A stretch of DNA of 64,000 nt, from NCBI RefSeq assembly GCF_900129555.1, contig NZ_FQWC01000002.1, positions 1 through 64,000 on the forward strand, read 5' to 3'. The position numbers were made by a program, and so were the translations under genes. Positions 3,101 to 20,006 of the stretch are shown here, piece after piece. Within the stretch, counting starts at the first letter, position 1; each line of letters starts with the position of its first letter. The DNA is from Flavobacterium defluvii. GTDB lineage: Bacteria > Bacteroidota > Bacteroidia > Flavobacteriales > Flavobacteriaceae. A model generated the notes under the pieces. It made no database searches. It was not told where the DNA came from and was given only the letters and a program-made list of their open reading frames with translations.

Positions 3101-5014
3101 ATGGAAGAAAAAAAATTAGACCTTAATTCAATCATTGGTTTTGTATTGATATTCGGAATTTTGATTTGGATAATGTACCAAAACAAACCTTCTGAAAAAG
3201 AAATTGCTGCTGAAAAAGCCAAGAAAGAATTAGTAGCTAAACAAGAAGCTCAGGCAAAAGCTGATAGAGCTAAAACTGCTGTTGTACCAACTGCTGCTGT
3301 AACGCCAGGTGATACAGTTCAATTAGCACAATTACAAAAAACTTTAGGCGGTTTTGCATATTCTGCTACACTTCCTTCTGCAAAAGAATCTTTTACAACT
3401 ATCGAAAACGAGAAAGTAAAACTTAAAATTGCTAATAAAGGTGGTTATATTGTTGAAGCAACTTTAAAAGAATTCGAAAAATTTAGAAAAGGTTCTGGAG
3501 AATTAGTTGAGTTAATTAAAAACAATAATTCAAACTTAAATTTACAGCTTCTTACAACAGATAACAGAACATTAAATTCTAAAGATTTATATTTTGAACC
3601 AACATTAGAAAAAGTTGGTGCAGATCAGGTTTTATCAATGCGTTTAAAAGCCGGTGCAAACGAATTCTTAGAATATAAATATGTTTTAAAACCAAACGAT
3701 TACTTAGTTGGTTTTGATATCCGTTCTCAAGGTTTAAATAAAGTTTTAAATTCTGCTAAACCTTTAGATTTACAATGGGATTTAAAAACTTACAGAAACG
3801 AAAAAAGTGTTTCTTATGAAAATCGTTATGCCGAAATTTATTATAACTACGAAGAAGGAAAAGAAAGCTACGTAGGGCAGGGAGATCTTAAAGAAGAAAC
3901 ACCTGATAAAGTTGAATATATTGCATTTAAACAGCACTTTTTTGCTACAATTTTAAAAACCGATACGGCTTTTGAAAAAGCAAATTTAGTTTCTGAAAAC
4001 TTAGTTAAAGACGATAAAATCGATACGGTTTTTACAAAACAATTTAAAGCAACCGTTCCTTTGGCTTTCTCTAGTGGAGAAATTAATTATAAAATGCATT
4101 TGTATTTTGGACCTGCAGATTATAAAGTCTTAAAATCGTACGATAAAAATTTCGAAAAAATTATTCCACTAGGATGGGGAATTTTCGGATGGATTAACAA
4201 ATTAATTTTCGTTCCGTTATTCGGTTTCTTAAGTTCAACTATTGGATTGTCTTTAGGAATTGCGATCATTATTTTTACAATAATTATCAAATTGGCAATG
4301 TCGCCAATTACCTATAAATCATTCTTGTCTCAGGCTAAAATGAAAGTTTTAAGACCTGATATCAATGAGTTGGGAGAGAAATACAAAAAAGACCCAATGA
4401 AAAAACAACAGGAAACAATGAAACTGTACAACAAAGCAGGAGTAAACCCAATGGCAGGATGTATTCCGGCGTTGATTCAGCTTCCTTTTATGTATGCATC
4501 GTTCCAGTTTTTTCCAGCAGCTTTTGAGTTAAGACAAAAAGGATTCCTTTGGGCAGACGATTTATCATCTTTTGACTCTGTTGTAAAATTACCATTCCAC
4601 ATTCCATTATATGGAGATCATATCAGTTTGTTCCCAATTTTGGCAGCAATTGCAATTTTCTTCTACATGAAAATGACTTCTGGAGATCAGCAGATGGCAG
4701 CGCCTCAACAGGAAGGTATGCCGGATATGGCAAAAATGATGAAAATCATGATTTATGTTTCGCCATTAATGATGTTAATTTTCTTCAACAGTTACGGTGC
4801 AGGATTGAGTTTATACAACTTTATTTCAAACTTAATTACAATCGGAATTATGTTTGTTATCAAAAACTATATTGTCGACAGCGAGAAAATTCACGCGCAG
4901 ATTCAGGAAAACAAATTAAAAGAGCCTAAAAAGCCAAGTAAATTCCAACAGCGTCTTCAGGAAGTAATGGAGCAGCAGGAAGCAGCTAAAAAAACTCAAA
5001 ATAAAAAGAAATAA
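3101..5014 (+). CDS. yidC: Membrane protein insertase YidC
   Basis: A 637-residue inner-membrane insertase that places newly made proteins in the membrane, alone or with SecYEG. An N-terminal membrane anchor (about residues 9-25) is followed by a charged Ala/Lys linker and a large periplasmic beta-domain to about residue 350. The conserved 60KD_IMP core then carries the remaining helices, with LFGFLSSTIGLSLG, the cytoplasmic loop around PMKKQQETMKLY and NPMAGCIPALIQLPF. The C-terminus is basic (QRLQEVMEQQ, KKTQNKKK), as expected for ribosome contact. It follows pyrG and ends at a strong hairpin terminator. Confidence 0.97.
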   Translation: MEEKKLDLNSIIGFVLIFGILIWIMYQNKPSEKEIAAEKAKKELVAKQEAQAKADRAKTAVVPTAAVTPGDTVQLAQLQKTLGGFAYSATLPSAKESFTTIENEKVKLKIANKGGYIVEATLKEFEKFRKGSGELVELIKNNNSNLNLQLLTTDNRTLNSKDLYFEPTLEKVGADQVLSMRLKAGANEFLEYKYVLKPNDYLVGFDIRSQGLNKVLNSAKPLDLQWDLKTYRNEKSVSYENRYAEIYYNYEEGKESYVGQGDLKEETPDKVEYIAFKQHFFATILKTDTAFEKANLVSENLVKDDKIDTVFTKQFKATVPLAFSSGEINYKMHLYFGPADYKVLKSYDKNFEKIIPLGWGIFGWINKLIFVPLFGFLSSTIGLSLGIAIIIFTIIIKLAMSPITYKSFLSQAKMKVLRPDINELGEKYKKDPMKKQQETMKLYNKAGVNPMAGCIPALIQLPFMYASFQFFPAAFELRQKGFLWADDLSSFDSVVKLPFHIPLYGDHISLFPILAAIAIFFYMKMTSGDQQMAAPQQEGMPDMAKMMKIMIYVSPLMMLIFFNSYGAGLSLYNFISNLITIGIMFVIKNYIVDSEKIHAQIQENKLKEPKKPSKFQQRLQEVMEQQEAAKKTQNKKK

Positions 5015-5020
5015 AAAACT

Positions 5021-5047
5021 AAAAATCCCGATTAAATCGGGATTTTT
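5021..5047 (+). terminator. Rho-independent terminator after yidC
   Basis: A 12-bp perfect stem (AAAAATCCCGAT paired with ATCGGGATTTTT) with a 3-nt loop and a T run, starting 7 nt after the yidC stop codon. Confidence 0.9.
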
Positions 5048-5069
5048 TAATTTATAGAAATATCTTCCT

Positions 5070-5099
5070 TTTGAAAAAGGAATGAATATTTTAACTTTG
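5070..5099 (+). promoter_or_regulatory. Promoter of the YwqK-like gene (TTTG-N18-TAACTTTG)
   Basis: TTTG at 5070-5073 and TAACTTTG at 5092-5099 are 18 nt apart. Together they fit the Flavobacterium -33/-7 consensus (TTG, 17-23 nt, TAnnTTTG). The leader to the ATG at 5159 would be about 53 nt. Confidence 0.65.
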
Positions 5100-5158
5100 A
5101 GAAAAACAATTATACTTTATGAAACGAATTTTCGTTTTAGTTTAAAATTAAATAAAAT

Positions 5159-5878
5159 ATGATTTCTAAAAGACTGATAACCGGACTTGTATTATTAAAT
5201 GTCTTCATCTTAAATGCTCAAACCGAATTTAATAAATTAGATTCTAACGGAAAAAAAGACGGCGTATGGAAAGGAGTTTATGAGGAATCCAAGCGTCCGC
5301 GCTACGAAGGAACTTTTGTTCACGGAAAGGAAACCGGAATTTTTAAATTTTTTGATGATACCAAAAAAGGAGATGTGATTGCAACACGTGATTTTACTGC
5401 AAATGACGGAACATCATATACAATTTTTTATGACCAGAATAAAAATATAGTAAGCGAAGGGAAAGAAGTTGGGAAAGTTAGGGAAGGAGAATGGAAATAT
5501 TATCACAAGGCTTCTAAAGTTTTGATGACTTCTGAAACGTACAAAAATGGAAAACTAGATGGTGTGCGAACTGTTTATTATCCTAATGCGAAAGTTGCTG
5601 AAGAAATGACGTATGTAAATGGTATAAAAGAAGGAAAGTATAGAAAACTTGGACAAAACGGAACTATTCAGGAAGAGTCTTTTTATAAAAACAATGAATA
5701 TAACGGCGGTGCAGTTTTTTATGACGCAGACGGAGCAGTTGCTTCAAAAGGGAAATTTGTAAATGGTAAAAAAGCCGGAATCTGGCAGTTTTATACAAAA
5801 GGGAAATTGAAAGAAATAAACATGAGCGACCCAAAACAAAGTTATAAAGCTGACTCAAAACCTAAAATGAGCAATTAA
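5159..5878 (+). CDS. Secreted YwqK-like / MORN-variant repeat protein
   Basis: A 239-residue exported protein with a signal peptide ending near ILNAQ (residues 1-21). The rest is a run of 'GxKxGxWxxYYxxGxxxxExxYxNGKxDG' units, for example GKETGIFKFF, REGEWKYY, GKLDGVRTVYY, GIKEGKYRK and GKKAGIWQFY. This is the repeat of the YwqK 'toxin-antitoxin antitoxin' family, a MORN-like beta repeat. The annotated antitoxin label has no support here, and such proteins in Bacteroidota are mostly envelope proteins of unknown role. A much longer relative is encoded at 16752-20006. It has its own promoter and a terminator-like inverted repeat downstream. Confidence 0.8.
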   Translation: MISKRLITGLVLLNVFILNAQTEFNKLDSNGKKDGVWKGVYEESKRPRYEGTFVHGKETGIFKFFDDTKKGDVIATRDFTANDGTSYTIFYDQNKNIVSEGKEVGKVREGEWKYYHKASKVLMTSETYKNGKLDGVRTVYYPNAKVAEEMTYVNGIKEGKYRKLGQNGTIQEESFYKNNEYNGGAVFYDADGAVASKGKFVNGKKAGIWQFYTKGKLKEINMSDPKQSYKADSKPKMSN

Positions 5879-5900
5879 AATATTTGAAGAATTAAATTTT

Positions 5901-5956
5901 TCAGCCACGAATTCACGAATTTGTTATAAAACTAAAATTTGTGAATTCGTGGCTGA
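5901..5956 (+). terminator. Long inverted repeat acting as terminator, part of a dispersed repeat family
   Basis: TCAGCCACGAATTCAC (5901-5916) pairs perfectly with GTGAATTCGTGGCTGA (5941-5956), and pairing extends further inward with one bulge. A run of eight T follows, so it can terminate the upstream gene. The words 'ATTCGTGGC' and 'ATTCGTGAA' recur in other intergenic stretches here (for example 24755-24780), which suggests a repeat family. Confidence 0.75.
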
Positions 5957-6005
5957 TTTTTTTTGTGTAATTGTTTAAATTTGATTGAGCTAATATTTTG
6001 ATTCA

Positions 6006-6563
6006 ATGGATTTAAACGAACTTATCGGACGATTTTTATTGTTGTTTTTTTCGATTTTGATTTTGTATTTTTTCTCAAACAGAAAAGATAACGAAACCAT
6101 AAATCCATTAATGGTTATTGTTGGGCTTTGTACATTTTCGCTTTGTTATTTGTTTACAAAAATTGAAATCGGCGTTGGTATTGGTTTTGGTTTGTTTGCC
6201 ATTTTTTCAATTCTAAGATTTCGTACACAATCGTTTACTGTAAATGCGATTATTTTTCTTTTTGCCACAATTACACTTTCTATTTTAGATATTATGTATC
6301 CATTTGAAAAAATAGAATTACTGCTGTTTTTTCAAATTATTATAATTGGTTTTTATGTTGCAGCTTCGATTATTGTAAATCGAAAAGCTTCAAAATACCT
6401 GAATACTGTTGATGTAAAAATTGCTTTTGCAGGTAATTTTTCTTTAGAAAATGGAAATATTCGCAAAGCAGTTCAGGAAAAAATAAATATTCAGGATTTT
6501 GATTTTAAAATTGTTTTGATCAATACGGTAACCAGCGAAATTGATCTTTTGGTTTTTTATTAA
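6006..6563 (+). CDS. DUF4956 family membrane protein
   Basis: A 185-residue protein with four hydrophobic segments in the first 125 residues and a soluble C-terminal alpha/beta part (KIAFAGNFSLENG...). The segment GFGLFAIFSILRFRTQSF is the signature of DUF4956. Members are often encoded beside VTC-type polyphosphate polymerases or CotH proteins. No such partner is visible here, and the closest gene, the dikinase-like one, converges from the other strand. The two stop codons share the bases TTAA at 6560-6563, so there is no room for a terminator between them. Function unknown. Confidence 0.75.
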   Translation: MDLNELIGRFLLLFFSILILYFFSNRKDNETINPLMVIVGLCTFSLCYLFTKIEIGVGIGFGLFAIFSILRFRTQSFTVNAIIFLFATITLSILDIMYPFEKIELLLFFQIIIIGFYVAASIIVNRKASKYLNTVDVKIAFAGNFSLENGNIRKAVQEKINIQDFDFKIVLINTVTSEIDLLVFY

Positions 6564-8437
6564 TCATTAAACGGACGTACTTGTTTGATGTATAAATCCC
6601 GATCTTCGCCCACAATTTTGAATTCAATATCTACTGGATGAAATGAATTTTTCCTCCAATAGCGATACATTTTTTCTTCTATCTTTTTGCTTACCAGAAA
6701 AAGCCTGCTCATTTCTTTTCGGCTTAATAAAGGTTCATTATTATTGAGATTTGAGTTTGAAGTATAGTCAACATCAAAATCGTCATCATTTGTTCCAGAA
6801 TTAAAATGATAAGCCACAAACTGTTCGCATATTTCTCCTTTTGCAGGTTTTACAACTGAGTTTTCACCTTTTTGGATATTAACCGTGATTCCCGGAAAAT
6901 TGTCTCTAAAAATGTTTTTGGTTATAATAACGCCATTTGCCAATTCATCGGGAAAAGAACGATGAACCAAAACGCCCATTGCAATATTTTCCTGATCGAT
7001 TCCAAAAAGTTCTCTTTCGTTATACGAAGCTTCGTTCCAAACGCTTGCCCAAACTTGTTTAATTGCTTTTTCAAAAGTTTTAACGCTGTCGCCGATAATT
7101 CCGGTTTTCGAATCGTATAATCCAGCGCCGTTAAATTCGTCCAGATCCTCTGCATTTGTTGATGATCGAAACCTGAAGTTTTTAAATTTAGCGTCTTTAA
7201 AAGCCAAATTTAGCTTCGAAATTAATTCAGGATCAATAGGTTCTTTTTTAATAGCGTCGCGAATTTTTTTCAATTGCTTACTTATCCAAACTGCCGAATC
7301 TTTTTTAGTAGATTCTAAAAGTTCTTTTATTAAAGGAGATATTGACTCTTTTTGAATGTGTTTGGTATAATAATAAAAAGGAATGGCATGCGCATTTTCC
7401 GGAACTTTAAAAGGAATTTCTTTCGAAATCGCAATCAAATACGCCATATTTTGTGCTTTTGAACCAATGTAATTAACTCCTTTTTTTGGAATTTTAGACA
7501 AATCGACTAAATCCGTAACGGTATTATCAATGATTAGTTTTTTCTTTTTTGAATTTGTTTTAATAACAATTTTTTTATCAGTTTCTTTTATAAAAAAAGT
7601 GTCAACCTGAATTTTCAACTCTACTTTTTTAGAAAGTAATTTTTTTATGTTTTCATCTTTTAATGCCAATGTATAAGCCATAATTGGAATTTTCCTGTTT
7701 TTTCCTAAAATTACCAAATGACTTAACGGAGTCTGAAGTTCATTAACAATAATTCCTCTTACGTTTGGCAGAATTTCCGGCGTTCCGTCTAAAACAATAA
7801 TTTCATCAGGATTTGGTTTGGTTTTATCCAAATCTTTGATTTTGTATTCTTTTAGAATTCCGACATTAGTTCCGGAAACAACTTCCTGATATTGTATTTC
7901 ATTAAAAATATAATCTGATTTTACGCATGGAATTTTGAATTGTTCTAAACCAAACCATTCCATTTGATCTGGATTATTTAGATAAAACTTTAAATCATCT
8001 TTGATAAAAGTTGAATTTTTAACGAGATTAAAAAAGCGTTCTATCTGCTCAATTGGCATTCTGTCTGAAGCCGCCAATTCAAAAATCCATTTATCTGTTC
8101 CTTTAATGTGGTTCAGATTTCCTAATAGAAAATCTCGATTTTTTAAAGTGTTACTATAATTTTCATTATTAAAAACTTCTAAATCATAATTGTATCGCAA
8201 ATAGTTAACCACAAAATCATAATGAAGCGGAATTAAAGTACTGTTGAAATAATACATTTTTTGTTTTCTCAAATCGTAAATAACTTTTACAGATTCGATA
8301 TTCGAAAATTTATCAGATAATGGTTTTCCTCTAAAAGCCTTGTAAGCATTATAATCCTGCAGCGTAGAAGAATACTTTTGCGCATTCACAGACACAAACA
8401 TTAGAAGGAAAAACAAGCTGTAAAGAGACTTTTTCAT
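6560..8437 (-). CDS. Exported PEP-synthase / water-dikinase-like protein
   Basis: A 625-residue protein. The ATG at 8437 gives a classic signal peptide (MKKSLYSLFFLLMFVSVNAQ); an upstream ORF extension would bury it. The C-terminal half (about residues 330-625) is a PPDK/PEP-synthase ATP-grasp domain, with GSKAQNMAYL, FRSSTNAEDL (Arg424), GAGLYDS, VWASVWNEASY and a final DIEFK...LYIKQVRPF. Ahead of it, at about residues 215-260, lies a phosphohistidine-like segment (TPLSHLVILGKNRKIP, His240). PEP synthase and PPDK have this domain after the ATP-grasp domain, while plant glucan water dikinases have it before. The enzyme would use ATP, which is odd for an exported protein. The substrate is unknown. 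Confidence 0.75.
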   Translation of the reverse strand: MKKSLYSLFFLLMFVSVNAQKYSSTLQDYNAYKAFRGKPLSDKFSNIESVKVIYDLRKQKMYYFNSTLIPLHYDFVVNYLRYNYDLEVFNNENYSNTLKNRDFLLGNLNHIKGTDKWIFELAASDRMPIEQIERFFNLVKNSTFIKDDLKFYLNNPDQMEWFGLEQFKIPCVKSDYIFNEIQYQEVVSGTNVGILKEYKIKDLDKTKPNPDEIIVLDGTPEILPNVRGIIVNELQTPLSHLVILGKNRKIPIMAYTLALKDENIKKLLSKKVELKIQVDTFFIKETDKKIVIKTNSKKKKLIIDNTVTDLVDLSKIPKKGVNYIGSKAQNMAYLIAISKEIPFKVPENAHAIPFYYYTKHIQKESISPLIKELLESTKKDSAVWISKQLKKIRDAIKKEPIDPELISKLNLAFKDAKFKNFRFRSSTNAEDLDEFNGAGLYDSKTGIIGDSVKTFEKAIKQVWASVWNEASYNERELFGIDQENIAMGVLVHRSFPDELANGVIITKNIFRDNFPGITVNIQKGENSVVKPAKGEICEQFVAYHFNSGTNDDDFDVDYTSNSNLNNNEPLLSRKEMSRLFLVSKKIEEKMYRYWRKNSFHPVDIEFKIVGEDRDLYIKQVRPFND

Positions 8438-12872: not shown

Positions 12873-14843
12873 CTATTGCGTTACGATAACCACAATTTTA
12901 TTAAAATCTGCGGCAGCATTGATAACTGCTTTATATTGATCAAAACTGCTTAATGGATAATTTATGATGTTGTAAAATTCAGTATTTTCTATTATTACTT
13001 CGTTTTTGTTTTGAGAATAATTACTTGTAAATGCGGCTTCGGTTTTACCGTTAAGTTCTGTTTTGAAATCCATCACAAACTTATCCAAATTTTTGATGGT
13101 TGCGCCTTCTGGTAAAATGATTTTAATTTTTCTGGTATAATAGTGTGGATAATCGATTTCAATAGGAAGCACTCTTTTGTTTTCCTGATAAAATTCCATT
13201 TGTTTACCAATGGTTTGTCCTACAGAAAACAAATAATTTCCTCCCGCTTTTTGAATCATGTCTTTTCCATCAAATGTTAAGTTTAATTTGTATGGTTTTT
13301 TTCCAATAAATTCAGTGCCATCATTTTCTGTTGTAAGGGTTTTATATTCAGTTTGTAACGTGTAATTTTCAGAAATGGTTTTTAGCATTGTCTGGTATTG
13401 ATCATTAGAAACAAAATCCTTTATCGGCTGAAAATTTAAACCAGAATATCCGCCATAAGTCATGTGGCTTGTAATTAATGGATTTTCGATATCTTTTGTA
13501 AAATCGGCTGTAATATCCATATAATCATGCGTGATTTCAGTTCCGGGGATTTCAATAAAGTTTATTTCTCCAATTCCCATAGAAAGACCTGCAAATACTT
13601 TTTCTTTAATAAATAATCCGTTATTATTTCCTAAATAACTAGGAAAAAGCGGTAATCTGTATTCTACTTCAGTTGGTGTCAGGTATTTTTTGATACTTGG
13701 AAAATAGAATAAAAACTCGTCTAAATTTTCATAACTCTCAAAATCTTTGTCAAAAGGAACTTTATATCGGTTTGAAGTAAAAACAAGATTCTGTTCGATT
13801 TTAAAATATTTAAAAACAGCAACATAAAGTTTAATGATATCTAAACTGTTTGCTTGTTTTGAACTGATAATATCGCTTAATCCATCTTTTGAATCCGTAT
13901 ATTTATCATAAATAATTGTTTTTTTAATCTTGTTTTCAATGTTCCAGATTTGTTCCTGAGGATCTTTAGAAACTGGAATATTGCTGCAGAAAGAGTTAAT
14001 CGCCTTTTCTTGTTTTTTATCTAAAACGGGATTAATCAACTCATAAGTTCTTGTAGCATATTCTTTAAAATTGCTTAGGTTTTTACCGCCGTTATAAAGG
14101 TTTGCGTCTAATTTGTATCTGAATAATTTTATTTTCACATCCCAATTTGAATACGCTTCGTCATCTTTTAAAGCTGGAATATCTTTTTCAGAAATACTTA
14201 AAACTTTTTTGTTCTCAAATTTTTTATCATCCAAAACGGGTTCGCTTAAACCGTTGTAAGATTTGGTTTTAAAAACAAGATGAGCCGGAGCTATCAATTC
14301 AAAGTTAAACTCGTTAATAGGATATTCATCCTGCATTTTAACTGTATTTCCTTTTAAATCGGGAGCTTCTTCTATAATATAAAGTTTCTCGATTACAGCG
14401 CCTTTTTCAAGACCGTTCAGGGCAAAATAATTATATTTCATTCCTTTTTCCTGATCAACTTCTTCTTTGATGTCTTTTTTATCAAGAACGTTTGTTTTGC
14501 CGTTTTTTAAGATTACCCGAACTTTTGTAATCAAAACATTTTCATTATCGCCAAACGGAATATAGATTTTATTGTTTCTTTCGATTGCATCGTCTGAGTT
14601 TATGTACTTTTTTTCATGTATCAAACGGTATTGTTTCGCAGTATTTTTATCTACAACAACTTCTATTTTTAAATTACGACTTAAGATTACTTCTTTCTCG
14701 TTTTCGTAGTTTTTAGGAACTTCAATCTTCGTATCTTTTTCGTTCCAGTTATAGTCCTTAAAAGTATATTCCTGAGCAAAGAAAAACGAGGTGTTTAGCA
14801 ATGCTGCAAAAATAAAAATGGTTTTTAATAATTGGTTTTTCAT
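12873..14843 (-). CDS. DUF3857 protein with inactive transglutaminase-like domain
   Basis: A 656-residue exported protein with a signal peptide ending SFFFAQ (about residue 24). An N-terminal DUF3857 beta-rich domain is followed by a transglutaminase-like region at about residues 275-375 and a C-terminal beta domain. It is the third gene of the operon, and its ATG overlaps the stop codon of the previous gene (base 14843 is shared). Compared with its neighbour, the catalytic Cys position is Ser333 (ANSLDII in place of GDCKDMA). The His position aligns with Glu (LDEFL against DNHMI), and the Asp position with a Thr (LTPTE against LDGTD). It should therefore bind rather than cleave or cross-link. 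Confidence 0.85.
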   Translation of the reverse strand: MKNQLLKTIFIFAALLNTSFFFAQEYTFKDYNWNEKDTKIEVPKNYENEKEVILSRNLKIEVVVDKNTAKQYRLIHEKKYINSDDAIERNNKIYIPFGDNENVLITKVRVILKNGKTNVLDKKDIKEEVDQEKGMKYNYFALNGLEKGAVIEKLYIIEEAPDLKGNTVKMQDEYPINEFNFELIAPAHLVFKTKSYNGLSEPVLDDKKFENKKVLSISEKDIPALKDDEAYSNWDVKIKLFRYKLDANLYNGGKNLSNFKEYATRTYELINPVLDKKQEKAINSFCSNIPVSKDPQEQIWNIENKIKKTIIYDKYTDSKDGLSDIISSKQANSLDIIKLYVAVFKYFKIEQNLVFTSNRYKVPFDKDFESYENLDEFLFYFPSIKKYLTPTEVEYRLPLFPSYLGNNNGLFIKEKVFAGLSMGIGEINFIEIPGTEITHDYMDITADFTKDIENPLITSHMTYGGYSGLNFQPIKDFVSNDQYQTMLKTISENYTLQTEYKTLTTENDGTEFIGKKPYKLNLTFDGKDMIQKAGGNYLFSVGQTIGKQMEFYQENKRVLPIEIDYPHYYTRKIKIILPEGATIKNLDKFVMDFKTELNGKTEAAFTSNYSQNKNEVIIENTEFYNIINYPLSSFDQYKAVINAAADFNKIVVIVTQ

Positions 14844-16786
14844 TATTTTTCGAGTAAAATTATAGTTTCGTTATAGTTAGTTTTTAGTTTTTTTATTGTG
14901 GCATTCCAAGGTTCAAAATCAGATTTGTTGAGTAATAACTTTTTTACCGTAAGGCTCACATTTAGATATAAAATGTTGTTTTTTAATTCATAAACGAAAT
15001 TTGCTTTTACGTAATCATTATCGAGATCAAAGTTTTTTGGAAGATATTTGATTGTATTATTTTTTGGAATTTCTAATGCATACTGCGTTGAGAATTTTGT
15101 TAAATATTCAAATTCGTATGGATAAACACGATCTTTTGCAATAATTGTTTTTTCTAAAAATTTGTCCAAAAACAAATTGACATACGTTTCTTTATCAACT
15201 TTTACAATATAATTATCAAGATCGAAATTGTAATTAATAGTGTATGGCAAATCTTTGTTTAAAAGATTTTCTTCTTTAAAATCCTTTAAATTAAACTTGT
15301 TATTTCCTTTTAAAACTAGTGATTTTATCATGTCCTGACGCGTTTTGTTTGACGCATCACCAATCTGCATTAAAACGTGGCTTCGGTTATAACCATAACG
15401 GGAAATTTTTGCATTTCCGACTAATTTACTATTCTCGATTTTAAGAATTACATCTTCTTTAATCTCGTTTAAATCACCGGGAACAACCGGAACTGGCTGA
15501 ATTTTATATTGATCGTTTTCTGTAAAAAGAACTTCTTTTCCCTGAATAAAAGCAGTGGGAATTCCATAGCGTGTTTCTTTATCTGTACCGTCCAGAAATA
15601 CATAATCGTTATCTTTTTTAAAGATTGCAATCATGTGATTGTCTACTGATGGTGTTGCAAGATCATTGTATGAGTAAGGAATGCTTCGGGTTCCAATCCA
15701 GGCAATTGTTACATTTTTTAAACCTGCATATAAAGACATTGTAGATATAAGATTTGCCATATCCTTGCAGTCTCCAAATTTTCGTTCAAACACCAAACTG
15801 GCTTCACGTGGTATAAAACCTTCGTAACCATCTTCAAAAGCAATGTATTTGATGTTGTTTTTTACCCAGTAAAAAATGCTTTTTACTTTTTCTTCATCAT
15901 TATTCTTATCTTTTGTAAGGTCAATTGCCAAAGCTTTTAAATCAGGATCTTCCTTTTTGTTTAAGTCTTTTACAAATGATTTGTAATAGTTGTAAAGCTC
16001 ATTTATATCTCCTAAAACTGGAGTAGTTTTGTTATTAATTGTATATTCTTTTATATAAAAATCAACATGGGGAACTATATACAAATAGCCAGGAGCATTG
16101 TCTTCATATTTTGATGGTTTAATGTTTGAAGAAGTCCACTTGTGAATCCATTTTCCTTTTTTTTCCGTTTTAGAATACGTAATTGTTTTATCAGGATCAT
16201 TGAAAATTTTATAATCGATCACGACATTTTTATCTGTTCGAACTTCTAAAACACAATTTTGAATTGGCAAAACCCCTCCAAATATAAATTTATGAAGCAA
16301 GTGCGGATCTAAAAACTGAGTTTGATAATGATACACTTTTTTTGCTCCGGTTTCTATACCCGGAAATGTAAGCTGACGTTCTTTTACATCATTATAAAAA
16401 ATAGAACCTTGCTCAGATTGTTTTTCAATTGTCTGAGTTACTTTTAGTTTTTTTTCTTTTTCATTATCATTTAAAACAGTATATGCTTCATAACTTTTTA
16501 GCGGAATTAATCCTGAATATGAAAAAGATTCTTTGTTGTTAATTATACCATTTTGAGTTAAAATCATTGATTCATAATGCGTGTCCTGCAGAATTTTTAA
16601 ACCATTGTTTTCTATCGAAATATCATATAATTCAGAATTATCAATGACAATTTCATTATAATCCGGATACAGATTTTTAGTGTCCTGAAAAGATTTTTGC
16701 GCTGTAATTATACTAGAGTATGCAATAAGAAATAAAGTCAGAAAAAAAGATTTATTTAATAATGTCGACCAATTCATCTGAGTCAT
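14843..16786 (-). CDS. DUF3857 / transglutaminase-like protein, intact triad
   Basis: A 647-residue exported protein with a signal peptide ending SSIITAQ (about residue 30). DUF3857 occupies roughly residues 50-220. A transglutaminase-like (papain-fold) domain lies at about 285-405, with catalytic Cys340 in FGDCKDMA, His384 in DNHMIAI and Asp399 in FLDGTD, and a beta-rich C-terminus follows. Such domains act as peptidases, amidases or cross-linkers, and the target is unknown. The start at 16786 lies 35 bp inside the end of the upstream YwqK-repeat gene, and an alternative ATG is at 16777. The overlap implies translational coupling. The gene downstream is a catalytically dead paralogue. Confidence 0.87.
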   Translation of the reverse strand: MTQMNWSTLLNKSFFLTLFLIAYSSIITAQKSFQDTKNLYPDYNEIVIDNSELYDISIENNGLKILQDTHYESMILTQNGIINNKESFSYSGLIPLKSYEAYTVLNDNEKEKKLKVTQTIEKQSEQGSIFYNDVKERQLTFPGIETGAKKVYHYQTQFLDPHLLHKFIFGGVLPIQNCVLEVRTDKNVVIDYKIFNDPDKTITYSKTEKKGKWIHKWTSSNIKPSKYEDNAPGYLYIVPHVDFYIKEYTINNKTTPVLGDINELYNYYKSFVKDLNKKEDPDLKALAIDLTKDKNNDEEKVKSIFYWVKNNIKYIAFEDGYEGFIPREASLVFERKFGDCKDMANLISTMSLYAGLKNVTIAWIGTRSIPYSYNDLATPSVDNHMIAIFKKDNDYVFLDGTDKETRYGIPTAFIQGKEVLFTENDQYKIQPVPVVPGDLNEIKEDVILKIENSKLVGNAKISRYGYNRSHVLMQIGDASNKTRQDMIKSLVLKGNNKFNLKDFKEENLLNKDLPYTINYNFDLDNYIVKVDKETYVNLFLDKFLEKTIIAKDRVYPYEFEYLTKFSTQYALEIPKNNTIKYLPKNFDLDNDYVKANFVYELKNNILYLNVSLTVKKLLLNKSDFEPWNATIKKLKTNYNETIILLEK

Positions 16787-19700
16787 ATTTATTTGTTTGC
16801 ACTAGTTTCCCAGCGTTGTAGATTAATGTGTTTCCGTGTAATTCATCATTTTTTAGAGAGATATCAGCCCAAAGTTGTCCATCTTCTTTAAAATACTGCT
16901 GCTGTCCATCATATTCGTTATTAACAAAATGTTCTTTTTTATAGATTTTTCCGTTGGCATAATATTCAATTCGATCTCCATCTAACATGTTATTAATATA
17001 ATTACATTCATAATCAGCTTTTCCATCTACATTATTAATTACAAATTTTCCATCAAAATTTCCTTTAGTAATTTTAAACTGAATAGCCGTTTTTCCGTTA
17101 GGATATAATGATGAAATCTGGGCTGTTTGATTTTCGATTAAAACTTTTTCAGTCAATTCTCCAGTTTTATTCTTTTTGATATAAAATTTAGGGACATTGT
17201 TTTCATAGCCTAAAATTAATACGGGCTCACCTTTTTGATTATAATACGTTTTGTTTCCTTCATCAATATCATTTACATGATTACTTTCTGATAATTTAGA
17301 TTTATTGTTATAATAACGAATGGTTTTTCCGTTTTCAAGACCATGTGCATATTCTAAAGTCATTCTTAAATTACCAACATAATCGTAATATTTATTTAAA
17401 CCATTTAATTTACCATTATAGTAATTGTTTTCAACAAGAATTGATCCTAATGGGCTATATGTTTTATAAGAATTTTGAAGTATACCATTTGCATATTCAC
17501 TCTCCACAATTTTATTTTTGAATTTATCCTGAGCGGTTAATTTTCCATTCAATATACCGTTAATATAAGAGCTGTTTTTAGTGTAAACGCCTTTATTAAA
17601 AGTTAAATTAAAATTTCCGGTTTTATTTTTATAATCAATGCTGTTTTCGATATCTCCATTGTCAGTAAACGTTTCAATATGAGTTAAATATCCCGATAAA
17701 TAAGTTTCTATACTTGATATTTTTCCGCTTTGAGAGTATATAGTTTTATTAGAATTGATTTCATTATTAATTATAAAACCTTCAGAAAGTACAGCGCCAT
17801 TTGAGTAAAAAGTGGTAAAAGGGCCATTTTGCTGTCCTTTATCGTAATGATAGACCTGATTTAATTTATTAGCATTATAAACTTCATAAATTCCACTAAT
17901 AGTATCATTTTCAAAATTACAAATGCTCGAAACATTTCCGTTACGATTGTAATTTGTAGTAAGACCATTGTTTTTCCCATTAATGTAAGATTCTTTTAAA
18001 CGTAAAATTTCAGAAGAAAAGAAATACTTCCATTCTCCATTTTTTTTACCTTTTTCAAAATTTCCAATAATACGGGGTGTACCATTGTAATTTTTTACTT
18101 CGAAGCCTTTCTTGCCCAAATTAACTTCTGTTCCTGCTGGAGAGTTTGCAGTAAATTGAACACCAGATTTTAATTCGCCTCCTTTGTATTTTTCTTCAAA
18201 ATACTTATTTCCCTGATTATCAAAATACGCGTAACTTTCTATTTCTTCTTTATTATTATAGATAGTTTCCGACGATTTGTTTCCATTTTCGCCATATTCA
18301 ACAGACTTACTAATTTTTCCCGCGATAAATGTATTTTCTTTTTTTAGAGTTTTGTTTGGATAATAGATTTTAGAAGTTCCTTCAATAACTCCATTTTTAT
18401 AAAAAGCTTCAGACTGAATTGTTTTTCCATCGAAATACTCAACATAATTTCCATCGATCATATTATTGACAAAATTGTAAGTTTCAAGAATGTCTCCTAA
18501 TTCATTATAATGAACATATTTTCCATTTAGTTTGTTTTTAGAAAACTGGCTTTCATTTTTCTTAGTCCCGCTTTCATATAAACAAATGAAAGTTCCGTCT
18601 TTTTCTCCATTAACAAAATTAACTTCGCAATTTTTGCCACCGTTCAGGTAAAATGATGTACTAATGCCATCTAAAACATCATTTTTATAATTTTCGATTA
18701 AAGAAATATTTCCGTTTTCATAATACGTAGTTCTTTTTCCGTTAAGTTTCCCTGCTGAAAAAGATTTTTCTTCAATTAGATTTCCTTTGTTATTAAAGAA
18801 TCTTTGTAAACCATCCAGAGCACCATTTTTAAAATTAAGTTCGCTGCCTAAATTTTCATATTCATTTAAGTATTTGCATTTACCTTCAAATAATCCATTT
18901 ACTTGTTTTCCAATTATATAAGGTCTGTGCTTATCGATAGAAACAATTACTTCTTCGGTAGTTCCAAACATATCCATTTTTCGTTTTCCAAAAACCGGCC
19001 AGAAATCTTTTTGAAGATAATCATCAATAAATGAGTTTATTTTTTTCTTTTGTTTGTTTAATTCTTTACCAATTCTGTCTTCAATAGAAACCAGACTATA
19101 ATATGAATAACCTTCCAGCTGGTTCTTTTCTACCATTTGTTTTACCCACGGAATATAAGTTGTTTCAAAAAAACCGTCTTCCATTTTATGCTCAACAGCA
19201 TATTCTGCAACAGCCTGAATTTGACGCGTGAGATTATCATCGATAGTTGATTTGATTTTATAGACTTTTTTTAGAGGTAATTGATTTCTTAAAATAGTTT
19301 CGATTTCTTCGAAATTATCACCAGATTTAGAGAAAATAACTTTACTTTCGGCTATATAATTCTGACCGTAATTTGCATTCAAATTTGTAATCGCCTGATT
19401 TGCATAAGGACCGGTTGGAGCCAGCATTAAATAAGTCATAAGTGCCAATGTCCCTTCTGTAATTTTTCCATTATCAAAAGCAGTAAGCCCCAATAAATAA
19501 TGAGATCCGGCATGATTTGGATTTTTTGTAATGATCGTTTTCAATACCTCGACACCCTTTTGCGGTTCATCTTTTCGAATATATAAAACGGCAAGATTAT
19601 ATAAAAATGTAGACGAATTGCCTAAATATTTTTGACCTTCGTTAAATATTTTTTCAGAAGCTTCGTATTCTTTTTCATTACTTAAAAAGATTGCATAAAT

Positions 19701-20006
19701 CTGAAAAAGTTCCGGATTCTCCTCCATTTTTCCTCTTTTATGAAGATCCTCCAGAAATGCTTTTAACTCACTTTTCTTCTGTTGTGCGCTAAGTGTCAAT
19801 GCTATCTCGTATTGAGCAGTCAGGTATTTAGGGTCCCATTTGCTAATTTTTTTGTACTCTTTTATCGCTTCATCGTATTTTTTTTGATCGTGTAAACGAG
19901 CACCTTTATTAATGATGGAATCGGCGTTGTATACAAAAGTGTAATCGGTTTGGGAATAGTTTTTTGAAAATAAAATTAAAGAAAGGAATAGTAAAATTTT
20001 TTTCAT
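16752..20006 (-). CDS. Large secreted TPR plus YwqK/MORN-like repeat protein
   Basis: A 1084-residue exported protein. The signal peptide MKKILLFLSLILFSKNYSQ is followed by tetratricopeptide-like helical repeats at about residues 30-225 (HDQKKYDEAIKEYKKISKWDP, YEASEKIFNEGQKYL, AGSHYLLGLTAFDNGK). A linker follows, and then from about residue 370 to the end a long run of YwqK/MORN-variant units ('YYxNGxxxxxxxYxxGxxxG'). The repeat architecture suggests an elongated beta-solenoid scaffold in the periplasm or at the cell surface. It is the first gene of a three-gene operon with two transglutaminase-like proteins. The small protein at 5159 shares the repeat. Function unknown. Confidence 0.85.
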   Translation of the reverse strand: MKKILLFLSLILFSKNYSQTDYTFVYNADSIINKGARLHDQKKYDEAIKEYKKISKWDPKYLTAQYEIALTLSAQQKKSELKAFLEDLHKRGKMEENPELFQIYAIFLSNEKEYEASEKIFNEGQKYLGNSSTFLYNLAVLYIRKDEPQKGVEVLKTIITKNPNHAGSHYLLGLTAFDNGKITEGTLALMTYLMLAPTGPYANQAITNLNANYGQNYIAESKVIFSKSGDNFEEIETILRNQLPLKKVYKIKSTIDDNLTRQIQAVAEYAVEHKMEDGFFETTYIPWVKQMVEKNQLEGYSYYSLVSIEDRIGKELNKQKKKINSFIDDYLQKDFWPVFGKRKMDMFGTTEEVIVSIDKHRPYIIGKQVNGLFEGKCKYLNEYENLGSELNFKNGALDGLQRFFNNKGNLIEEKSFSAGKLNGKRTTYYENGNISLIENYKNDVLDGISTSFYLNGGKNCEVNFVNGEKDGTFICLYESGTKKNESQFSKNKLNGKYVHYNELGDILETYNFVNNMIDGNYVEYFDGKTIQSEAFYKNGVIEGTSKIYYPNKTLKKENTFIAGKISKSVEYGENGNKSSETIYNNKEEIESYAYFDNQGNKYFEEKYKGGELKSGVQFTANSPAGTEVNLGKKGFEVKNYNGTPRIIGNFEKGKKNGEWKYFFSSEILRLKESYINGKNNGLTTNYNRNGNVSSICNFENDTISGIYEVYNANKLNQVYHYDKGQQNGPFTTFYSNGAVLSEGFIINNEINSNKTIYSQSGKISSIETYLSGYLTHIETFTDNGDIENSIDYKNKTGNFNLTFNKGVYTKNSSYINGILNGKLTAQDKFKNKIVESEYANGILQNSYKTYSPLGSILVENNYYNGKLNGLNKYYDYVGNLRMTLEYAHGLENGKTIRYYNNKSKLSESNHVNDIDEGNKTYYNQKGEPVLILGYENNVPKFYIKKNKTGELTEKVLIENQTAQISSLYPNGKTAIQFKITKGNFDGKFVINNVDGKADYECNYINNMLDGDRIEYYANGKIYKKEHFVNNEYDGQQQYFKEDGQLWADISLKNDELHGNTLIYNAGKLVQTNKYDSDELVDIIK

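Follow-up and report, generated by a model that had tools for sequence, protein, structure and literature searches.

ATP-driven enzymes are unexpected outside the cytoplasm because their donor is absent there, and rifampin phosphotransferase and the HpeHI-type dikinases are cytoplasmic enzymes. In the plant glucan and phosphoglucan water dikinases, the phosphohistidine domain precedes the ATP-grasp domain. The His domain of rifampin phosphotransferase (RPH) is described as shuttling between the ATP-grasp domain and the acceptor site (PMC4844700), and the two-component HpeHI enzyme illustrates that dikinase domains can occur on separate chains and in other arrangements (PMC12167813). A published gene cluster combines CotH with a polyphosphate polymerase and DUF4956 (PMC7112168), and CotH is reported to phosphorylate the spore-coat protein CotB (PMC7821199). 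Here we analyze a gene of Flavobacterium defluvii located in the first 64,000 nucleotides of contig NZ_FQWC01000002.1 (RefSeq assembly GCF_900129555.1), the whole stretch being referred to below as the window. The gene (6560..8437, minus strand) encodes P0001, a dikinase-type protein of 625 residues from the ATG that is predicted to be exported. It lies tail-to-tail, with a 4-base overlap, with the gene of a 185-residue DUF4956 membrane protein (6006..6563, plus strand; PF16316, E 7.6e-18). Our analysis favors, with a probability of about 0.56, a model where P0001 acts as an extracytoplasmic dikinase-type phosphotransferase and the DUF4956 partner most likely supplies its donor or else anchors or couples it. 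A sequence-only reading of the window had placed the gene correctly at 6560-8437 without mentioning that it runs from 8437 to 6560 on the minus strand. The exported dikinase anatomy that it described is real, and its interpretation as a whole is partly supported.

Relatives were sought in Bacteroidota genomes, in a named genome collection (with patterns taken from P0001 only, which find close relatives) and in a plasmid collection. The named collection yielded 54 loci, all in Flavobacteriaceae and 52 of them titled Flavobacterium; L007, for example, comes from F. johnsoniae CI04. The window and 51 of these loci form the 52-row alignment A1, from which the broken or cut L005, L015 and L054 were omitted; a further alignment, A4, omits seven of the 54. 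Residues 1-19 (8381..8437, minus strand) make up a Sec-type signal peptide, with cleavage expected before Q20. The leader was judged by eye, and its junction A19|Q20 is invariant in all 52 rows. A glutamine after the cleavage site is the Q-rule of Bacteroidetes (PMC5837995), which A19-Q20 fits, and the clear signal peptide reported earlier was thus borne out. A leader was also seen by eye in 9/9 long relatives (two of these only with a start upstream of the first-chosen ATG), and the distant relative L082 carries a type IX secretion sorting tail (E 6.6e-12). Given the conserved leader and A|Q junction, we reject a cytoplasmic start downstream of the leader. These features point to a dikinase exported by Sec. 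The earlier idea of an extracytoplasmic phosphotransferase is supported, the predicted location itself resting on the leader sequence.

The second half of the protein is a PPDK_N ATP-grasp domain (PF01326; residues 322-623; 6569..7474, minus strand) that was detected with an E-value of 6.7e-26 and 91.8 bits against a cut-off of 27. The motifs FRSSTNAEDL (holding Arg424), WASVWNEASY and LYIKQVRPF are found where they had been described, as is TPLSH, which ends in His240 (codon 7718..7720, minus strand), the predicted phospho-carrier. His240, K327, R424, D603, E605, Q619 and R621 do not vary in the 52 Flavobacteriaceae rows, nor in nine divergent rows made up of P0001 and eight relatives at 23-47% identity. 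K327, R424, E430, D431, D603, E605, Q619 and R621, together with a serine or threonine at 443, are common with the phosphoenolpyruvate (PEP) synthases in 22/22 rows. In RPH, changes of Lys22, Arg117 or Thr136 are reported to abolish or nearly abolish resistance (PMC4844700), and in our reading of the alignments these residues correspond to K327, R424 and S443. The conservation of the catalytic counterparts makes phosphorylation of His240 by ATP the likely first half-reaction, ATP use being inferred along with it. The protein could instead serve for binding or sensing: it would hold nucleotide or phosphate extracellularly, with no turnover, and relay a signal to DUF4956. No acceptor is known and ATP is expected, from general knowledge, to be scarce outside the cytoplasm, which would suit a sensor, but invariance of His240 and the catalytic residues down to 23% identity exceeds what binding needs, and we consider this alternative rather unlikely.

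The gene is under strong purifying selection, which makes loss of catalysis unlikely. The median dN/dS was 0.074 for the whole gene and 0.053 for the ATP-grasp part (maximum ratio 0.429) in 49 of the 54 orthologues, L005, L015, L035, L048 and L054 being left out of this set. Four of the 49 pairs hold a one-codon insertion that was not realigned, most likely raising the ratio, and synonymous sites are near saturation, with a finite dS in 28/49 pairs for the N-terminal part. A single in-frame stop occurs in two of the 54 loci, L005 and L015, which would fit a view of P0001 as a decaying, non-functional fragment of a former PEP synthase. The dN/dS value and the conservation of both architecture and partner in two families speak against this; decay of the gene was rejected on the selection test, and the decaying-fragment explanation is highly improbable. 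The earlier suggestion that the protein may have lost catalysis is likewise unsupported, given the ratio of 0.074 and catalytic residues invariant in nine rows to 23% identity. The stop falls after 165 residues in L005 and after 20 in L015 (near 5001-6878), and one TGA is in frame in one of 19 genus-sample orthologues (G379:C31:417715-419589); these cases could reflect recent loss or sequencing error.

The swivelling phosphohistidine domain (residues 180-290; 7568..7900, minus strand) is the best-modelled large part of the AlphaFold2 model. Blocks within residues 181-290 have pLDDT values of 68-95, with the minimum (71, 68) at 231-250, where His240 sits. The whole-protein model was poor (mean pLDDT 61, pTM 0.36), with ATP-grasp blocks at 22-83, so the assignment of that half rests on sequence. 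The phosphohistidine part aligned with RPH (5fbu) at a VIA Z of 10.4 and 2.8 Å over 99 residues. Enzyme I and PPDK carrier domains aligned to it at Z 7-8.5, including the PPDK carrier 2fm4 at Z 7.3. This part thus matches the RPH His domain in fold, but it can be aligned with pyruvate kinase (Z 9.6) and with MccF (Z 7.8) as well, so the fold alone is not specific for a phosphohistidine domain. P0001 reads NELQTPLSH before His240. A glycine-rich loop precedes the histidine in swivel domains elsewhere (PMC12167813), but this loop is not kept here.

The phosphohistidine domain precedes the ATP-grasp domain, as had been proposed. An LSH or VSH histidine comes before the ATP-grasp arginine in 12/12 exported forms examined, whereas in five of seven PEP-synthase-like frames a recognizable TCH motif follows the arginine; wherever this motif was recognized it came after it. 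A tree of the ATP-grasp domain, rooted at midpoint, set 15 exported forms apart from seven PEP-synthase-like rows (100/100). The short forms grouped with L082, which is on a long branch (99/98), and the long forms formed a clade of their own (100/99). The order of domains is also that of the plant glucan water dikinases, and P0001 could be an exported bacterial glucan dikinase phosphorylating an alpha-glucan or another polysaccharide. The phosphohistidine domain had no Pfam match above cut-off; its match to GWD1_pHisD (PF22973) reached 13.2 bits against 27. At lax thresholds this family appeared weakly in five of seven proteins scanned (P0001, L082, L084, L085 and L091), which could be taken as favoring a glucan dikinase, but all scores (11.4-15.7 bits, cut-off 27) were below cut-off, and four of the seven matched the bacterial PEP-utilizers mobile domain equally weakly (13.4-16.9 bits against 23.1). 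No glucan dikinase was among the listed fold matches, an absence that excludes nothing. In addition, no carbohydrate-binding Pfam family, the starch-binding N-terminal domain included, matched P0001 at E 1, and its N-terminal domain is without a clear match. A glucan dikinase is, in our view, quite unlikely.

The N-terminal domain (residues 40-186; 7880..8320, minus strand) was modelled with a pLDDT of 83.5 and a pTM of 0.82, and may be the acceptor-binding part. Fold searches gave no convincing match for it (best Foldseek E 0.21). The best VIA match was a Stay-Green protein (Z 4.5, 3.6 Å over 102), and phosphohistidine phosphatase aligned at Z 4.4 and 4.2 Å over 82; these searches speak neither for a new fold nor for its absence. 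At the other end, the protein stops two residues past the ATP-grasp match and no PEP/pyruvate barrel matched in Pfam at E 1, in agreement with the earlier claim that this barrel is missing. No other PPDK_N match was found in the genome of the window at E 0.001, and P0001 is thus no copy of a resident housekeeping PEP synthase.

The link between the dikinase and its DUF4956 partner is well supported. The DUF4956 neighbor has hydrophobic segments within residues 2-126. Among 121 Flavobacterium genomes, the dikinase was found in 19, and all 19 encode DUF4956 within 337 bases of the dikinase match; only five of the 102 dikinase-negative genomes have it. DUF4956 was present at 52 of the 54 named loci, convergent with the dikinase in 52/52, and the other two loci end at a contig end. 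The association extends to another family, that of G017, where seven of 147 genomes carry the dikinase, one (G491) in an 830-residue form. DUF4956 was tested in 24 of these 147 genomes, the seven with the dikinase and 17 listed ones without, and was present in 6/7 positive versus 1/17 negative genomes (Fisher p 3.5e-4, a value that overstates independence because the genomes are related). In G017 and G437, the two genes again converge, amid neighbors that differ from those in Flavobacterium, and in G438, G447 and G491 DUF4956 lies on a contig other than that of the dikinase.

In G492 (L146), the dikinase, VTC and DUF4956 genes stand in one row on one strand, separated by an 11-base gap and then an 11-base overlap, and no CotH match was found in that genome. 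Taken with the published CotH cluster, this row suggests that an exported dikinase can occupy the place that a kinase has elsewhere. In the dikinase-negative Flavobacterium genomes with DUF4956, the gene lies beside VTC in G304, beside a VTC piece at a contig end in G337, and in G371 beside a protein resembling the VTC of G304. In G359 (L112:6307-8185) the gene directly after it encodes a CotH kinase whose leader-like N-terminus has Gln where cleavage would be expected. CotH is co-present in eight of 30 dikinase-positive genomes, and the dikinase thus does not replace CotH as a rule. The genome of the window has one copy, on another contig (G000:C7:44323-45357, within a 708-residue open frame). 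VTC accounted for 14 matches among 74 neighbors of 20 DUF4956 loci; the neighbors were those within two genes of 20 lower-scoring loci chosen for this purpose, with open reading frames of at least 1400 residues omitted. The donor could be inorganic polyphosphate or a nucleotide derived from the polymer; VTC would make polyphosphate at the inner face, DUF4956 would export it and the dikinase or CotH would use it. These VTC neighbors, the G492 row and the published cluster (PMC7112168) all fit such a route. However, VTC was found in 0/21 short-form genomes tested (that of the window included, with 20 Flavobacterium carriers) and the nucleotide-site residues are conserved; a polyphosphate donor is unlikely.

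A second family of exported dikinases points to a different membrane protein. A single-sequence search of 296 Bacteroidota genomes matched 24. The short form was found in six Flavobacterium genomes, that of the window included, and in G017, from another family, at 46% identity; G045 has an 830-residue relative, which bears a type IX secretion sorting tail; and in six genomes the matches were PEP-synthase-like proteins, over the ATP-grasp part. A long form of ~900-990 residues was found in ten genomes, and a profile from nine long forms recovered a full-length long form in the same ten of the 296. In the plasmid collection, no place covered 80% of the query, and the listed rows were ATP-grasp matches, in most cases annotated as PEP synthase or as PEP/pyruvate-binding protein. 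The long dikinase lies beside an NTT-HEAT protein in seven of the ten genomes (G103, G118, G130, G234, G227, G064 and G062, whose NTT-HEAT gene runs off the contig). NTT proteins are described as nucleotide transporters where studied, and their HEAT fusions as functionally uncharacterized (PMC5381601). Pfam TLC, an independent count, was present in 8/10 long-form genomes versus 11/286 others; it misses G064, whose neighbor is recognized in Pfam by MFS and HEAT models alone. Profile A5, built from five of the long-dikinase neighbors so that five of the ten match by construction, was found at E 1e-20 in 10/10 long-form versus 16/286 other genomes, and above 450 bits in 9/10 versus 5/286.

The long-form loci have other recurrent members. 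In eight of nine loci read, the gene after the long dikinase encodes a protein of ~420 residues with YPIDGY close to the N-terminus and an SxxK motif; those of L083 and L085 match Beta-lactamase2 above cut-off and that of L090 falls just below. A second Beta-lactamase2 protein of ~310 residues lies nearby in L083, L084, L085, L086 and L091. Across L083-L091, one thus sees a recurring cassette of long exported dikinase, YPIDGY protein, NTT-HEAT and often the second Beta-lactamase2 protein. Separately, in two genomes of one genus NTT-HEAT is in tandem with a shorter NTT-like gene of ~460 residues (G199:C7:47924-52192 and G195:C1:855727-859836).

If P0001 is exported as predicted, it would cross the inner membrane by the Sec route, and its ATP-grasp domain would move a phosphoryl group from its donor, ATP or a related compound, to His240 of the swivelling domain. 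This domain would then swing back and hand the group to a cell-envelope acceptor, perhaps held by the N-terminal domain. DUF4956 would most likely deliver the donor through the inner membrane, or anchor the enzyme there and couple it, and the dikinase would fill the slot of the CotH kinase in CotH-VTC-DUF4956 clusters. By association, the simplest reading is that DUF4956, for the short form and CotH, and NTT-HEAT, for the long form, supply the donor or couple the enzyme to it; DUF4956 might instead serve as anchor, receptor or polymer channel. The sequence-only reading had spoken of an unknown phosphoryl source. That source is narrowed by the linkage of the short form to DUF4956 and of the long form to an NTT-type translocase.

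Several observations weigh against an extracytoplasmic phosphotransferase served by DUF4956, among them the in-frame stops described above and the relatedness of the genomes compared. To our knowledge, DUF4956 has no known function. It is kept at the identical locus in G364 (L113:6595-7152), where the dikinase is absent, and conversely G536 has the dikinase and no DUF4956. No NTT-type translocase (TLC) was found in the genome of the window or in six other short-form sample genomes. Since these forms lack VTC as well, their donor is unexplained unless DUF4956 supplies it. The link of NTT-HEAT to the long form is weakened by strong NTT-HEAT matches without a long dikinase in five genomes (G250, G151, G286, G081 and G195), all in two genera that also hold a positive genome, and by the absence of TLC from the short-form genomes of the sample. 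Finally, replacement of Glu297, which binds metal at the ATP site of RPH, is reported to be without effect on resistance (PMC4844700), and the conserved acidic pair of P0001 therefore proves little.

Two related dikinase families carry export signals, and each is linked to its own membrane protein, in one case a nucleotide translocase by family. The delivery of a phosphoryl donor to the bacterial envelope thereby becomes open to direct testing, and roles can be proposed for DUF4956 and for NTT-HEAT in free-living bacteria. One could tentatively go further and imagine a phosphoryl economy outside the cytoplasm of Bacteroidota, in which swivelling dikinases are exported and their donor is supplied by DUF4956 (for the short form and CotH) and by NTT-HEAT (for the long form). 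We find this broader proposal doubtful at present, but if true it would give DUF4956 and the free-living NTT-HEAT proteins a first role.

Elsewhere in the window, three adjoining genes on the minus strand (12873-20006) encode two proteins of ~650 residues and one of 1084, with leader-like N-termini and slight frame overlaps.

When compared with known systems, P0001 belongs with the PPDK_N/ATP-grasp dikinase superfamily, as its above-cut-off PF01326 match and invariant His swivel domain indicate. It shares with PEP synthase and PPDK the ATP-grasp catalytic residues and a swivelling phosphohistidine domain, but it has an export signal, its His domain comes first, and it has no PEP/pyruvate barrel; domain order and the missing barrel rule out membership in that group. 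RPH gave the best fold matches for both P0001 domains, although the ATP-grasp match had an rmsd above 13 Å, owing to the poor modelling of that half. RPH and HpeHI illustrate that dikinase chemistry serves acceptors besides pyruvate (PMC4844700, PMC12167813), but their ATP-grasp domain comes first or is on a separate chain, and membership in the RPH family was rejected (NCBIfam RIF_Ptrans_rph, 49.8 bits against a cut-off of 999). The plant glucan water dikinases share the domain order and the sub-threshold Pfam matches, and differ in that P0001 has no carbohydrate-binding family and a GWD1_pHisD score below cut-off. P0001 is not a PEP synthase, and we do not count it among the glucan dikinases, the likeness being one of domain order. 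Among the titles and abstract openings listed by our searches of open-access literature, none mentioned an exported dikinase or connected one with DUF4956 or NTT. The published CotH-polyphosphate polymerase-DUF4956 cluster (PMC7112168) has the DUF4956 partner in common with our locus, and in G492 the dikinase itself stands beside VTC and DUF4956; here, however, the kinase is a dikinase, and VTC is absent in the 20 Flavobacterium carriers tested. The NTT-HEAT fusions (PMC5381601), of which the genome of the window has none, adjoin the long exported relatives in 7/10 genomes. Against these systems, what is new is the conserved membrane partner, the parallel family that goes with a nucleotide translocase, and the evidence that catalysis has been kept.

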